64,000 bases of DNA, from positions 3,008,565-3,072,564 of the forward strand of contig JAHBUV010000001.1 of the NCBI GenBank assembly GCA_019637915.1, read 5' to 3'. The translations under genes and the position numbers were made by a program. Below are positions 46,067 through 51,364 of the stretch, piece after piece (position 1 is the first letter of the stretch; the number at the start of each line of letters is the position of its first letter). The notes beneath the pieces are model-generated. The model had not been told where the DNA came from. It was given only the letters and a program-made list of their open reading frames with translations, and searched no databases. Source of the stretch: Pseudobdellovibrionaceae bacterium (GTDB lineage: Bacteria; Bdellovibrionota; Bdellovibrionia; Bdellovibrionales; Bdellovibrionaceae).

Positions 46067-46092
46067 GGAACGCGAAAGCCGATGAAACGAAA

Positions 46093-46122
46093 AGCCGTTC
46101 TTGAAGAAGAACGGCTTTTTTT
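46093..46122 (+). terminator. Intrinsic terminator
   Basis: AGCCGTTCTT (46093-46102) pairs with AAGAACGGCT (46107-46116), loop GAAG, with a seven-T run overlapping the stem end. It marks the left edge of the AT-rich island. Confidence 0.85.
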
Positions 46123-46454
46123 ATTGGGGAAGGCGGGCCATGGGTCGGGTGGTTTTTCGCAATTCTAAAATATCCTATTCGGCAGCCCCATCTTTTTAAA
46201 GAAGGCCTGAATTTTAATCTGTTTATTCATTTTTAATGAGTTTATGGATAAAACACTGATTTTCTCTGTGAAACTATATTTAGCTTATTTTTTTATTCGA
46301 ATTTGAAGGGGGGGGTCTTCATAAAAAGAACGAGATTCTTTTTAAGGTGTAAGCGTTTTGCTCGAAATTCTTACAATGATGAATGGCGATATCAATTTTC
46401 TTAGTATCGTTTAATCAAACAATATATATTAATTTATATTAAAATGGGAGCGCC
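46123..46454 (+). other. AT-rich left flank of the island
   Basis: About 330 nt with abrupt loss of G+C from about 46160 (the line at 46381-46440 has 12 G/C in 60). A small hairpin AAAAAGAA/TTCTTTTT lies at 46323-46343, and runs such as AATATATATTAATTTATATT near 46421 could hold the promoter of the next gene. Two tiny open frames (21 codons at 46244, 13 at 46377) have no ribosome site and are not called. Confidence 0.5.
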
Positions 46455-46769
46455 ATGAAACTTTCCAAGTCAATGTGCATTCACAAGGAAATATTGGCGC
46501 TCATCGTGATTGGTCCTTCTGCCCAAGCTTCTGAGGGCTGCATTTCTCAGTTTATGAAGTCTTCCAGTCCTGACCTTTTTGACATGGTGATCAGTCAATT
46601 TCAAGCTCAGTTCACCAATTTAAAATTTGATTGGGTGGAAGCTATTGAGGTAAGCGATGAGGCGGAAGGTTCAAATTGTCGTTTCAGTCTTGATAGTGGC
46701 CATTCCATTGTGCTTCCTATGGAAGCCAGTTCTTACACTCAGCCAAATAAATACAGCAAAGATTTTTAA
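46455..46769 (+). CDS. Small secreted protein at the head of the YcaO island
   Basis: 104 residues. Signal-peptide-like start (MKLSKSMCIHKEILALIVIG, then PSAQA), mature part with two cysteines (EGCISQF and SNCRFSL). GGGAG precedes the ATG. Its last 113 nt overlap the start of the solute-binding-protein gene in another frame, so either the tail of this frame or the head of the next may be read differently from what is shown. It could be a small periplasmic partner, a regulator or, less likely, a precursor peptide for the YcaO enzyme. Not recognised. Confidence 0.5.
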   Translation: MKLSKSMCIHKEILALIVIGPSAQASEGCISQFMKSSSPDLFDMVISQFQAQFTNLKFDWVEAIEVSDEAEGSNCRFSLDSGHSIVLPMEASSYTQPNKYSKDF

Positions 46770-48189
46770 TAGTATGTTCAATCCAATGTTGAAAACGACA
46801 GGCTCCTCTCTCCTGCTTAAAAGCGAGATCATTTCTGATCTCAGTTTGCACTTGGATGATGTTGAGCTATTGCAAAATGCTTTTATTGTTCAATCTCTGG
46901 TAGGACCTCTCGTGCGCTTCTCGAACCGTGGAAGATATGAACCATACGTAGCGAAAAGCTGGACTCAATCTGGTAATTCTTGGGTTTTTAGCCTTCACTC
47001 TGATCTGTCATGTGAAGATGGCCAAGCTATTACGGCTCAAAATTTCAAGAAGAGTCTTGAGCGCAGTTTGCGAAAATTTTCACACGATGAGATCCAGGAA
47101 ACCCCGTTTGCTTCACTCAAGAGTATGACGGCAAATGGTGAAGAATTGATTATGGAGTTCTCAAAACCAGTGGGAAAGGCTTTGCTGGAATATTTAGCAA
47201 TGACTCCATTCGCCTTTTTGTGCGAATCGAACTTTGACGGAGATAAATGGATTTCCCACGATAAGTTCGTATCTTCGGGACCGTATCGAATTACCCATTT
47301 TGATAATCGAGCTCAAGAAGCCAAACTTGAAATCCGTCCTGAATGGCTACTTTCTCCTTCGGGTTCTTTTAAGGAAGTTTATCTGGCAAAGGAGGAGATT
47401 TCAGGTCTTCTCCCCACAGCCAAAGTTGAAATGACATATGGGAAAATGAAATCTCGCGATTCTCGCGATAGCTTGGTGCTTGAAGTGCCAAGGGCCTTGT
47501 TGTCTTTGCGTCTTGGTATTGAGCAAGATCAGTTTTTCTCAAATCGACAGAATCGCCTTGCTTTGCAGTCAGAGGTAAACAGAATTGTCTCTAAAACAGA
47601 GATTGCTTTTGAGAATTATCATCGGGCGGAAAGCTTCTTTTTTGGGCAGGTCTCAGGACATGAGATAACTGGGGTGAAACCGTCCAATATTTTATCTCCA
47701 AAGAAGGTTTTACAAATCAGAGGCCAGCGTGAAGGCCTGCGTCCAGAGGTTGATTTTTATCAAAACATTCTATTCAAGGCTCTCAGTAATCTAGGATGGG
47801 AATATGAAATCATAACTAGACCTGTTGGAAGTGCGAAAGACTTTTTCACAATGAAATATGATATCGCATTTGATCGTTCGCATGTTGATGCTACATTAGA
47901 TCCTGATTTCATCAGACTGCTTTTCAAAAGCAAATTAGGACCTCGTTATCAGGATCCCGGTAAAAGGGTGGCAAATCTCGTTGATGATTTTGATCAAGGA
48001 CGTCTGAGTTATCGTGATTTTCTCATCTCATTTAACTCAATTATTTCAGAGGAGGCCGCTATTTTGCCTCTTTATCATCGAGGATTTACTTGGGATTTTT
48101 CATCCAACGTAGATACATCTTCGATGAGTCCGTTAATGAGCATTGTCAGATATGAAGATATTCACCTCAAAGACGATGAGAAGTATTAA
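46657..48189 (+). CDS. Family-5 (Opp/Dpp-type) extracellular solute-binding protein
   Basis: 510 residues. A hydrophobic N-terminal segment after MRRK (VQIVVSVLIVAIPLCFLW) has no clear cleavage site, so the protein may stay membrane-anchored. The SBP_bac_5 fold is recognisable from LVGPLVRFSNRGRYEPYVAK, SWVFSLHSDLSCEDGQAITA and NFKKSLERSL, with RVANLVDDFDQGRLSYRDF near the end. Such proteins bind oligopeptides for ABC importers or act as peptide receptors. No permease or ATPase gene is nearby. GAGGT sits 6 nt before ATG 46657; an in-frame ATG at 46774 is the alternative. Codon use is AT-rich. It overlaps the YcaO gene. Confidence 0.78.
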   Translation: MRRKVQIVVSVLIVAIPLCFLWKPVLTLSQINTAKIFNSMFNPMLKTTGSSLLLKSEIISDLSLHLDDVELLQNAFIVQSLVGPLVRFSNRGRYEPYVAKSWTQSGNSWVFSLHSDLSCEDGQAITAQNFKKSLERSLRKFSHDEIQETPFASLKSMTANGEELIMEFSKPVGKALLEYLAMTPFAFLCESNFDGDKWISHDKFVSSGPYRITHFDNRAQEAKLEIRPEWLLSPSGSFKEVYLAKEEISGLLPTAKVEMTYGKMKSRDSRDSLVLEVPRALLSLRLGIEQDQFFSNRQNRLALQSEVNRIVSKTEIAFENYHRAESFFFGQVSGHEITGVKPSNILSPKKVLQIRGQREGLRPEVDFYQNILFKALSNLGWEYEIITRPVGSAKDFFTMKYDIAFDRSHVDATLDPDFIRLLFKSKLGPRYQDPGKRVANLVDDFDQGRLSYRDFLISFNSIISEEAAILPLYHRGFTWDFSSNVDTSSMSPLMSIVRYEDIHLKDDEKY

Positions 48190-49003
48190 GGCTATCTCAT
48201 TAAAATCTGAAAGTCTTTTTTGGGAAATGTCTGAAGTTTCCGGATATTGGCATGTCAACTGCATTGATAAGAAGTTTGATGTCGGTGGTTCTGGATTTTC
48301 TGTCCTGAAAGAAACGGCAAAGAAAAAGTCTTTTTCGGAACTCAATGAACGTTTTTTGGTCACTCAGATCAAATCCATAGATTGTAAAAAAAAAGAATGG
48401 GGACTGCATTTTGATAATAGCTGCTCTGGATTCGCCGTTGGTTATTCAAAATCGAAAACCATTCTAAGAGCCATTCTTGAGGGATGTGAGCGTTGGACTC
48501 TTTCACAATGGATTGATTATAAGATTTCTTTAAGAGAGTTAAAAATCAAGCTCGATTCTCCAATGCATCAAGAGCTAACAAAATTTTTTTCAGGCTATTC
48601 AATTTTTTTTAAAACAATACCAATTTATTTTGCAGAGCGCATTCTAAAGGCGCAAGTCGTTGTTTTTTTGGGATGGACAGAAAAAGGCGTGTTCGCTGGA
48701 TATGGTACAAAATTGATTTTTGAAGAGGCTCTCGACCATGCATTGGTCGAGGCAGTTCGAAATTTTCTTATTTATGAGAATCAGCAAGGAAATGATCAAT
48801 TTCCGTATGATCGTATTCGATTTTTTGCCGAAAATAAGCCCGCCGCTAAAGCCGCTATTCATGAACATAATAGACAGCATTGGAAGATGCCTGCTCTGAA
48901 TTTGTTGAAGATTGATCGTTTTGACGATCTCTGGATTGCAAGAGCTATATTTGATGGTTGGGAACCTTGGCAGAAGGGTTCGGTCAGTAGGTTTTTATAC
49001 TGA
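48152..49003 (+). CDS. Compact YcaO-family ATP-dependent enzyme
   Basis: 283 residues from ATG 48152 (alternatives TTG 48143, ATG 48176). YcaO features are seen in the right order. An E-x-x-E-R segment (SELNERF, Glu63/Glu66) is followed by SCSGFAVGYSKSKTILRAIL running into LEGCERW (Glu110/Glu113). Next come a Gly-rich turn (VFAGYGTKLIFEEALDHALV, then EAVRN with Glu200) and the late WIARAIFDGWEPW. These Glu positions match the Mg-ATP ligands of YcaO proteins, so the enzyme may be active. YcaO enzymes phosphorylate amide backbones to make azolines, thioamides or amidines in RiPPs and ribosomal proteins. This one is short for the family, and no E1-like/RRE or TfuA partner is present. It overlaps the binding-protein gene and touches the kinase gene by 1 nt. 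Confidence 0.78.
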   Translation: MKIFTSKTMRSIKAISLKSESLFWEMSEVSGYWHVNCIDKKFDVGGSGFSVLKETAKKKSFSELNERFLVTQIKSIDCKKKEWGLHFDNSCSGFAVGYSKSKTILRAILEGCERWTLSQWIDYKISLRELKIKLDSPMHQELTKFFSGYSIFFKTIPIYFAERILKAQVVVFLGWTEKGVFAGYGTKLIFEEALDHALVEAVRNFLIYENQQGNDQFPYDRIRFFAENKPAAKAAIHEHNRQHWKMPALNLLKIDRFDDLWIARAIFDGWEPWQKGSVSRFLY

Positions 49004-50109
49004 TGCGAGCTTGGAAGCCGCCCCTTTTCATTGGCCTTCTTATTCTCGAGGCTCTCGCGTTGGGGGCGGTCCAGGGGCTTTTTGTCCGCCTTGAGGTGGG
49101 GCAGGCGAGAATGGCGTCGACGCTTGTCGGGGCGCTCTTGCGGAATGAGTCCGTGATGTCCCAATCGTATTTGATCGCGCAGTCCATCGAGGACATGCAG
49201 GCCTTCAGCGTTATTCAATGCGCCCGTTTGTTAAAAACGACCTCTGAAGCGAAGGTCATTTTTTATGATTCCACGTTCAAGCGGGGCTGCTCGCTGAGGG
49301 GGCTTGAGACGGTCACGCTCGCCGGTCTCGACGGCAATTCATGGGAGATGCAGGTCGCGCCGAAGATCGATATATCTTTTTATATCCTCAAATGGATGAC
49401 GCTCTTGAGTGTTTCTGTGGCCCTTTTTGTCGGTTACCGGCTTTTGATCCAGATTCTCATGAGCGAAAAGAAAAAGATCGAATCCATCGAGACGAAGCGC
49501 ATTTTCCTGGCGAATCTGGCCAATCAGGTTCGGCATGATGTGGCTTCACCCATTTCAGCTTTGAAGGTCATCGCGGAGCGAGCTCCATTGGACCCTGATA
49601 CCAAGGTGTTTCTCCAAGAAGCGGTGCAGAGAACGGAAGGGATCTTCAATACACTCGGCCAGTTCAAAGCCTTGGATGAAGCGGTGCCTGTCGATTCTGA
49701 AATCTTGAAAATCATCGAAGAAAAGAAAGCCACGCGGCCCGATTTTCCAAAGGTGATGTTGGATATTCCGAAGATGTCCTTAAAAATGCCGCGAGTTGAA
49801 TTCGGACGCATGATTTCAAATCTCTTGGATAATGCACATGAGTCCGAGGCTCGCTTTATTCGTTTCAAGGGGGCGATGGGTGATCGATTCATTCATCTTC
49901 ATGTTTTTGATGACGGAAAAGATATTCCTGCCGAAGTCCCCGGGAAAATAGGGCAGCGCTTCAATACCTCTGGCAAGCTCCGAGGCTCAGGGCTTGGTTT
50001 GTTTCAAAGCCTTCAGTTCATGCGATCGCTGGGTGGGGAAATCAAAATCGCTTCGGTCCGTGGTGAAAAAATTATTCTCACTTTTCCCAGAAGTTTATTG
50101 GAACCCTGA
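49003..50109 (+). CDS. Membrane sensor histidine kinase
   Basis: 368 residues. One N-terminal span (PPLFIGLLILEALALGAVQG), a periplasmic region of about 100 residues with two cysteines (QCARLL, RGCSLRG), and a second span (WMTLLSVSVALFVGYRLL). The dimerisation helix carries His178 in VRHDVASPISALK; the ATPase has NLLDNAHESE (N), FDDGKDIP (G1) and GSGLGLFQSL (G2). G1 reads DDGKDIP, not the usual DNGxGIP, so nucleotide binding may be altered. No response regulator is adjacent. The ATG overlaps the YcaO stop (ATGA), so it belongs to the same transcript; its base composition is intermediate. Confidence 0.85.
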   Translation: MRAWKPPLFIGLLILEALALGAVQGLFVRLEVGQARMASTLVGALLRNESVMSQSYLIAQSIEDMQAFSVIQCARLLKTTSEAKVIFYDSTFKRGCSLRGLETVTLAGLDGNSWEMQVAPKIDISFYILKWMTLLSVSVALFVGYRLLIQILMSEKKKIESIETKRIFLANLANQVRHDVASPISALKVIAERAPLDPDTKVFLQEAVQRTEGIFNTLGQFKALDEAVPVDSEILKIIEEKKATRPDFPKVMLDIPKMSLKMPRVEFGRMISNLLDNAHESEARFIRFKGAMGDRFIHLHVFDDGKDIPAEVPGKIGQRFNTSGKLRGSGLGLFQSLQFMRSLGGEIKIASVRGEKIILTFPRSLLEP

Positions 50110-50134
50110 GAGCTTATTTGTCGGGCTGAAAAAA

Positions 50135-50160
50135 CCGCCCTTTTCAGGACGGCTTTTTTT
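50135..50160 (+). terminator. Terminator of the island operon
   Basis: CCGCCCT (50135-50141) pairs with AGGACGG (50146-50152) with one mismatch, followed by CTTTTTTT. Confidence 0.7.
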
Positions 50161-50738: not shown

Positions 50739-51059
50739 TTAGGAGGCCTTGATTTGGATCTTCAGTCCCAAAGCGCCCAACAGCGAGAAAAGCGTGGTCA
50801 ATTCAGGATTGCCTTTTTTCGAGAGAATTCGATACAGGGCTTCGCGTGAAACGATGGAGTTTTCCGCGAGGCGGCCGAACCCATGGGCCTTTGCCACGTC
50901 ACGCAAGGCCATCAGGAATCGCTCTTGATGGCGAGGGCCTGGATCCTCGAGAACGGCGTTCAGATAAGTGACCGCATAACGCGGGTCGCGGAGCCGTTTG
51001 GAAAGACCGTCTTCGTATTTCGTCATCGTTCGTTGTTCCGTTTTCTTCTTTGATGCCAT
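50739..51059 (-). CDS. higA: HigA-family antitoxin
   Basis: About 106 residues. The C-terminal helix-turn-helix (FGRLAENSIVSREALYRILS and PELTTLFSLLGALGLKI) matches the COG3636 addiction-module antitoxin family, with RLRDPRYAVTYLNAVLED as its usual N-terminal section. It binds and neutralises the toxin and probably represses the shared promoter. ATG 51059 lies inside the toxin gene (37-nt overlap), giving toxin-first order; a later ATG at 51026 is possible. Confidence 0.88.
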   Translation of the reverse strand: MASKKKTEQRTMTKYEDGLSKRLRDPRYAVTYLNAVLEDPGPRHQERFLMALRDVAKAHGFGRLAENSIVSREALYRILSKKGNPELTTLFSLLGALGLKIQIKAS

Positions 51060-51364
51060 AACCAAGCCTCTTTGGCGGAGCGGATATCCTGCAATTGGGA
51101 TTTCTTGTCTCCACCGCCCAGAAGGAGCACGAGTGACTTGCCTTCTTGAGCGAAATAAATTCGATAACCAGGTCCCCAATCAATTCGGAATTCAAACACC
51201 CCTTTCCCAACGCTTCGGTGATCCCCGAGAAGACCTTGGCGGATCCGGGTGATTCGAGCATCAATGATGGCCTGTGTTCTCAGGTCTTTCAGACCATCAA
51301 ACCACTTCTGGTAAGGGCACAAGCCATTTGCATACTGGAAAAGAACCAATGTGATTTCCGTCAT
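51023..51364 (-). CDS. higB: HigB/RelE-superfamily toxin (Gp49-like)
   Basis: 113 residues. WFDGLKDLRTQAIIDARITR, VGKGVFEFRIDWGPGYRIYF and LVLLLGGGDKKSQLQDI are the features of the phage-Gp49-like/HigB (COG3657) killer proteins, likely ribosome-dependent mRNA endonucleases. The annotated ATG at 51364 lies only 2 nt after a strong -10 element, so the transcript is nearly leaderless or translation starts lower down, for example at TTG of residue 6. Confidence 0.9.
   Translation of the reverse strand: MTEITLVLFQYANGLCPYQKWFDGLKDLRTQAIIDARITRIRQGLLGDHRSVGKGVFEFRIDWGPGYRIYFAQEGKSLVLLLGGGDKKSQLQDIRSAKEAWLWHQRRKRNNER

Follow-up and report, generated by a model that had tools for sequence, protein, structure and literature searches.

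A candidate modified-peptide sensing cassette with a stand-alone YcaO enzyme in an AT-rich island of a Pseudobdellovibrionaceae bacterium

The locus and its genes

Here we report on a four-gene cassette at positions 46455-50109 (+ strand) of a 64-kb stretch of DNA, hereafter the window, from a Pseudobdellovibrionaceae bacterium (GenBank assembly GCA_019637915.1, contig JAHBUV010000001.1). An earlier note, made from the letters of the window alone, had placed four genes here head to tail in an AT-rich island, encoding a small secreted protein, a family-5 solute-binding protein (SBP), a stand-alone YcaO enzyme and a histidine kinase (HK). The open reading frames (ORFs) are present as it described, and the features of the locus are as follows.

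46086..46119, + strand: terminator-like hairpin AAGCCGTTCTTGAAGAAGAACGGCTTTTTTT at the end of the upstream gene, read from the sequence
46120..46454, + strand: AT-rich leader, presumed promoter region
46455..46769, + strand: small secreted protein of 104 aa, putative precursor peptide (GGAG ribosome-binding site, family model, alignment)
46657..48189, + strand: family-5 solute (peptide) binding protein, 510 aa (Pfam PF00496, GAGG ribosome-binding site)
48143..49003, + strand: stand-alone YcaO, 286 aa (PF02624, predicted fold, motif alignment)
49003..50109, + strand: membrane sensor histidine kinase, 368 aa (PF02518, alignment, model)
50127..50158, + strand: terminator-like hairpin at the operon end, read from the sequence

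The island begins directly past the first hairpin and has the low G+C content noted earlier, 42.5% over 46120-50125 as against 61.8% and 60.4% in the flanks and 62% in the genome; among its genes, YcaO stands at 37.5% and HK at an intermediate 50.4%. Two of the three overlaps were reported correctly, 113 nt between the small gene and the SBP gene and 1 nt between YcaO and HK (TGATG). The third, given as about 38 nt, is in fact 47 nt from the listed TTG start of YcaO or 14 nt from an ATG at 48176, and the ATG (yielding a YcaO of 275 aa) fits the start of the nearest relative better. Shine-Dalgarno-like sequences precede the small gene (GGAG) and the SBP gene (GAGG), and a sigma-54 -24/-12 site was not found in the leader of the window copy.

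In a same-genus genome (G038) the junction between relA and bacterioferritin is kept without the peptidase gene, the 139-aa gene or the cassette, and that genome carries its own cassette elsewhere (L019). Because of this empty junction, we regard the island as a variable unit that has probably moved horizontally. As for simple flanking repeats that could mark an integration, the only one seen is a 15-nt similarity between both terminators, the T-tail half of the first hairpin recurring as D2 at 50146-50160. Just past the bacterioferritin-like gene that adjoins the island, two small overlapping ORFs at 50739-51364 (- strand) resemble, by eye, a toxin-antitoxin pair of the HigB/HigA type.

The enzyme, the binding protein and the kinase

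The earlier note had proposed a profile search and structure prediction as checks on the enzyme, and both bear its assignment out. The window protein matches Pfam PF02624 (E 2.9e-10; 40.4 bits against a cut-off of 25.7). A search of the PDB with this single sequence gave no match; with a profile of relatives, the top-ranking solved structure was E. coli YcaO (4q84), both ExxER motifs being aligned. An AF2 model (pLDDT 78, pTM 0.78) retrieved YcaO enzymes as all of its top 23 PDB matches, the best with an E of 7.4e-6 and TM scores reaching at most 0.54 over the query. On profile and model together, the predicted protein is a member of the YcaO family.

In the alignment with 4q84, window residues E66 and E69 correspond to E. 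coli E75 and E78, and E113, E116 and R117 to E199, E202 and R203. The claim of an ordered set of glutamate motifs thus stands for both ExxER motifs, which are kept in 41 of 44 cassette YcaOs, and falls for the equivalent of E191, which is K105. The C-termini of these enzymes are conserved by clade as RF[LV]Y, ERLCL or HP[IV]L, the window protein ending in RFLY; this pattern would suit a role at the active site. Searched among plasmid records, neither the window YcaO nor a YcaO from the second clade of cassette enzymes (clade II) had a relative, and matches to the SBP were weak and partial.

The binding protein was likewise correctly recognized, with a match to SBP_bac_5 (PF00496) above cut-off at E 1.7e-12. 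It starts with a hydrophobic signal or anchor segment, and its homologues in relatives were aligned with it. The kinase matches HATPase_c (PF02518) above cut-off at E 2.2e-11. In the model it has two transmembrane segments around a small periplasmic alpha/beta domain, in which two cysteines (C73 and C96) are invariant in the alignment; a HisKA-like histidine, H178 (RHDVASPISAL), is followed by HATPase_c, and there is no receiver domain. Foldseek with the HK model matched kinase cores alone and gave no match to the sensor domain.

Recurrence across the phylum

With a profile itself built from cassette members, we found YcaO homologues in 61 of 369 Bdellovibrionota genomes and read about 45 of their neighbourhoods. 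In nearly all readable ones YcaO has an SBP gene as its immediate neighbour on the same strand, usually on the upstream side, and in most an HK gene follows YcaO directly. Order and strand of SBP, YcaO and HK are preserved among the 29 full triplets compared, and the order holds in many genomes of several families of the phylum; a contig search with a narrower alignment gave five named relatives, all of them in Bdellovibrionota, with two from Bdellovibrionales and one each from Bacteriovoracaceae, Oligoflexia and Pseudobdellovibrionaceae. The four gene kinds occur together across the phylum, as the earlier note had asked of related genomes, and since homologous cassettes recur in so many of them we reject a chance neighbourhood. 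Over the 29 cassettes pairwise distances in YcaO correlate with those in SBP (r = 0.95) and in HK (0.76); at least some of this is accounted for by their being inherited jointly as a single operon.

The window genome holds a second SBP-YcaO-HK operon (L062, 3985-7656, - strand), with a YcaO divergent from that of the window and an 84-aa ORF with a signal peptide upstream. Pairs of SBP and HK genes without a peptide-modifying enzyme also occur (L016 4732-7376, L063 3963-6720 and L018 237-3173), the SBP of L016 being called by length and position only; these pairs are sometimes divergent from the YcaO cassette. The enzyme-free pair may represent the ancestral sensor unit.

A conserved family of small secreted proteins

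The 104-aa protein has an N-terminal stretch resembling a signal peptide (..ILALIVIGPSAQA), and its C-terminus (..VLPMEASSYTQPNKYSKDF) carries the motif [PYF]N[KR] of its family; the closest counterpart of its end, TQPNKYSKDF, is ASPNKTDSGA of L012. The earlier note had proposed a search for short conserved ORFs near homologous loci, and this turned up a conserved secreted family: an ORF of 55-170 aa with a signal peptide, ending at or overlapping the first cassette gene, accompanies 28 of 41 cassettes with enzyme and HK, as against 13 of 254 controls drawn from other genes of the same loci (Fisher 1.3e-19, related loci not being independent).

With the window sequence left out of its construction, the family model still detects the window protein at E 1e-6. 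When built from all members, the model has one further good match (L014, E 6e-12), which lies inside a cassette, as does a weak match in L031/L070 (E 0.09). The left-out members L012, L071 and L019, the last two distant, were not recovered, so the window family is loosely bound. The C-termini differ with the enzyme: [PYF]N[KR] in the YcaO clade of the window, [GS][TS]QD in YcaO clade II and DxSIF..F.....DIV with HExxH enzymes. The small ORFs of L069, L018, L099, L095 and L015 end in tryptophan motifs (SSWNIS, ANLWNGG, GNW), a pattern which suggests further types of precursor.

Exchange of the enzyme

Two further operons of the window genome have the order regulator, small protein, HExxH enzyme, SBP and HK. 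Both enzymes pass TIGR04267, the model for aKG-HExxH-type peptide beta-hydroxylases, with 57.8 and 54.5 bits against a cut-off of 40, and in L140 and L147 an HExxH enzyme occupies exactly the YcaO slot between SBP and HK. In a tree of 60 SBPs, those linked to YcaO and those linked to HExxH enzymes separate, with 8 and 3 label changes where shuffled labels give 18.4 and 9.4; the details are unsure because of long branches.

HExxH proteins of this kind also occur in other settings. Many genomes of family f12 have one TIGR04267 protein of 400-500 aa in another neighbourhood (L151-L154), without SBP or HK, and in L139, L142 and L145 an HExxH protein of about 300 aa is followed by conserved proteins of about 367 and 465 aa, a context that may be a separate peptide-modifying cluster.

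Regulation and conjugation genes in relatives

The response regulator absent from the window copy exists in relatives, where fuller operons are headed by an NtrC-type protein with a receiver and a sigma-54 activator domain; many clade II cassettes begin with it. In 16 of 20 cases (a few of them near-copies) a strict -24/-12 site is located within -250 to +90 of the start of the NtrC gene, compared with 8 of 260 controls; the strict pattern was tightened after the outcome of a loose scan, making the contrast partly post hoc. That loose scan covered the region ahead of the SBP gene and showed no distinction between cassettes and controls. Because of the site ahead of it, the regulator probably activates its own operon, precursor included. 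Directly ahead of the conjugation genes of most elements, no strict sigma-54 site was found.

Twelve cassettes from three enzyme lineages adjoin conjugation genes, that is, those of a type IV secretion system (T4SS), a link that the earlier note did not foresee. Three have HExxH enzymes (L061, L137 and L138, only the first conserved neighbour being visible within the stretch read for L138), six belong to YcaO clade II (L074, L075, L077, L081, L084 and L096) and three have divergent YcaOs (L091-L093). In the window genome (L061/L167) the neighbours include a TrbC/VirB2 pilin, a TraC/TraG-type ATPase, CagX/VirB9, TrbI/VirB10, a coupling protein and a serine recombinase, and a tyrosine integrase is present in L169. 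No conjugation genes were seen at any locus of the window clade, the 64-kb window included.

With its HExxH cassette, T4SS and serine recombinase, L167 (G000:C1:2635001-2655000) is a probable integrative conjugative element of the window genome, and genes resembling ArsC/Acr3-type arsenic genes are inserted among its T4SS genes. In several elements the T4SS operon is separated from the sensing cassette by small proteins that by eye resemble sigma-factor region 4 (L167 2585-2878, + strand; L171 16575-16862, - strand; L173 8946-9263, + strand), and these perhaps link NtrC to the conjugation genes.

A model for the cassette and its rivals

Based on these observations, we think it fairly probable that the island is a module for sensing a modified peptide, akin to a pheromone of the RiPP class (ribosomally synthesized and post-translationally modified peptides) and composed of precursor, enzyme, periplasmic receptor and kinase. 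The 104-aa protein would be the precursor, with a Sec-type signal peptide, and the cytoplasmic YcaO would use ATP to activate one or more backbone amides in its conserved C-terminal part, so that an azoline, thioamide or amidine forms before the protein is exported or while it is. In the periplasm the SBP would capture the modified peptide, which may have been trimmed, and the complex would set the activity of the neighbouring membrane HK. In fuller relatives the partner of the kinase would be the NtrC-type activator that heads the operon, closing a positive loop, and on integrative conjugative elements the output would probably be conjugation. The window kinase would have to signal to a regulator elsewhere, as it has none locally. 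The earlier note proposed that the set could produce or alter a peptide, bind it at the envelope and pass a signal on by way of the kinase; this proposal is in keeping with all of these findings and is partly supported by them.

Several points weigh against this interpretation. The precursors are long, at 55-160 aa, and it is unusual for a substrate that is modified in the cytosol to carry a Sec signal peptide, such signals on RiPP precursors being rare but known (PMC12452194). Some cassettes have no recognized small gene (e.g., L068, L072, L146 and L148, with L072 near a contig end), and a dedicated protease or exporter was not among the genes conserved in cassettes when recurrent neighbours were clustered. 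The window copy has no response regulator nearby and no T4SS in its 64 kb. Activity of the YcaO is not assured, since E. coli E191 and N187 are replaced by K105 and Y101, with the loss of one acidic position that we take to be important in the E. coli enzyme, and since no E1, RiPP recognition element (RRE) or TfuA partner is found in the window operon or among the genes recurring around cassettes.

In the main rival the target of modification is the receptor or kinase itself: the YcaO or HExxH enzyme would act on SBP or HK and tune the sensor for external (e.g., prey-derived) peptides, the small protein being an accessory periplasmic factor. YcaO enzymes can indeed act on folded proteins, namely uL16 and methyl-coenzyme M reductase (PMC13063428), the enzyme's distances track those of the SBP closely, and there are enzyme-free SBP-HK pairs (L063, L018 237-3173); yet operon co-inheritance alone accounts for part of that correlation, and a shared small substrate better fits the finding that one slot is taken by two unrelated enzymes of RiPP type, each with its own small secreted protein conserved at the C-terminus. 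We hold this rival to be unlikely. That the product is instead a bacteriocin-like RiPP used in competition, with SBP and HK as a circuit for self-sensing or immunity, seems to us very unlikely. Antibacterial RiPPs are, as is generally known, often made by YcaO clusters, the signal peptide would provide export and bacteriocins are commonly tied to mobile elements, but clustering of recurrent neighbours showed the cassettes to share no conserved exporter, protease or immunity protein; the neighbours that do recur are conjugation genes, and a self-activating regulator suits signalling equally.

It is also conceivable, and in our judgement the least probable of the readings considered, that the window copy no longer has a function and is what is left of a mobile element in decay. 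Its AT-rich composition, its variable site and the lack of a regulator, T4SS or sigma-54 site would agree with this, whereas none of the four ORFs is broken, ribosome-binding sites and translational overlaps are in place, and the YcaO and HK motifs are kept. The stand-alone form recurs in other families (L012, L016, L017, L019, L066 and L067), which argues that it is maintained.

Comparison with known systems

As the earlier note observed, no permease, ABC ATPase, E1/ThiF, RRE partner, TfuA or response regulator adjoins the four window genes. A standard Opp importer is rejected, its permease and ATPase genes being absent from the window operon and outside the conserved cassette, and so are a standard azole cluster with E1/RRE and a TfuA thioamidation cluster, there being no such partners in the operon or its recurrent neighbours. 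Most characterized YcaO enzymes act on RiPP precursors (PMC13063428), and the cassette resembles azol(in)e, thioamide and amidine clusters in having YcaO beside a small ORF conserved in relatives. It differs in its short YcaO (about 286 aa), the absence of E1, RRE, TfuA and exporter, the Sec signal peptide of its precursor and its conserved partners SBP, HK and NtrC. E. coli YcaO, its top sequence match among solved structures, has 586 aa, thioamidates folded uL16 and has no small gene nearby (PMC13063428). Bufferins and other MNIO-modified RiPPs also have Sec-signal precursors modified in the cytosol (PMC12452194), but with another enzyme family, a copper-related function and neither sensor kinase nor SBP.

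Among signalling systems, the likeness is to Agr (AgrBDCA), generally known as a self-activating operon of precursor, modifying and processing enzyme, HK and response regulator. The equivalent gene set is complete in the fuller relatives, with the sigma-54 site ahead of the regulator, and lacks the regulator in the window. There are no homologues of AgrB, AgrD or LytTR: the cassette has YcaO or HExxH enzymes where Agr has the AgrB protease, and a Sec signal peptide, a separate SBP receptor and NtrC/sigma-54 control in a Gram-negative phylum where Agr has a LytTR regulator. In the pheromone-responsive enterococcal plasmid pCF10, the OppA-like PrgZ is a pheromone receptor and conjugation the output (PMC7117660). 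The 12 related cassettes encode a putative peptide receptor with conjugation genes, which the window copy does not; PrgZ, however, delivers its peptide to Opp, which brings it in to the regulator PrgX in the cytosol, whereas the cassette is without a permease and has an HK (with the NtrC regulator) and a peptide-modifying enzyme.

Implications

Peptide pheromones are textbook biology of Gram-positive bacteria. In a literature survey of incomplete coverage we found no description of YcaO, a solute-binding protein and a histidine kinase as one system. We see an even case for a phylum-wide family of two-component systems for RiPP pheromones, in which YcaO and HExxH enzymes are exchangeable, a dedicated SBP is coupled to the kinase and conjugative elements use the module to time transfer; the window would then represent a chromosomal stand-alone branch that lost the conjugation output or never had it. 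If true, Gram-negative relatives of predatory bacteria would have a large family of signalling systems based on modified peptides, one that has had no name so far, with precursor, enzyme, receptor, kinase and regulator in one operon as a genetic handle and, often, a measurable output in conjugation. A set of stand-alone YcaO enzymes and HExxH peptide hydroxylases would likewise gain a function, and RiPP tailoring enzymes would prove to be exchangeable within a single signalling module.

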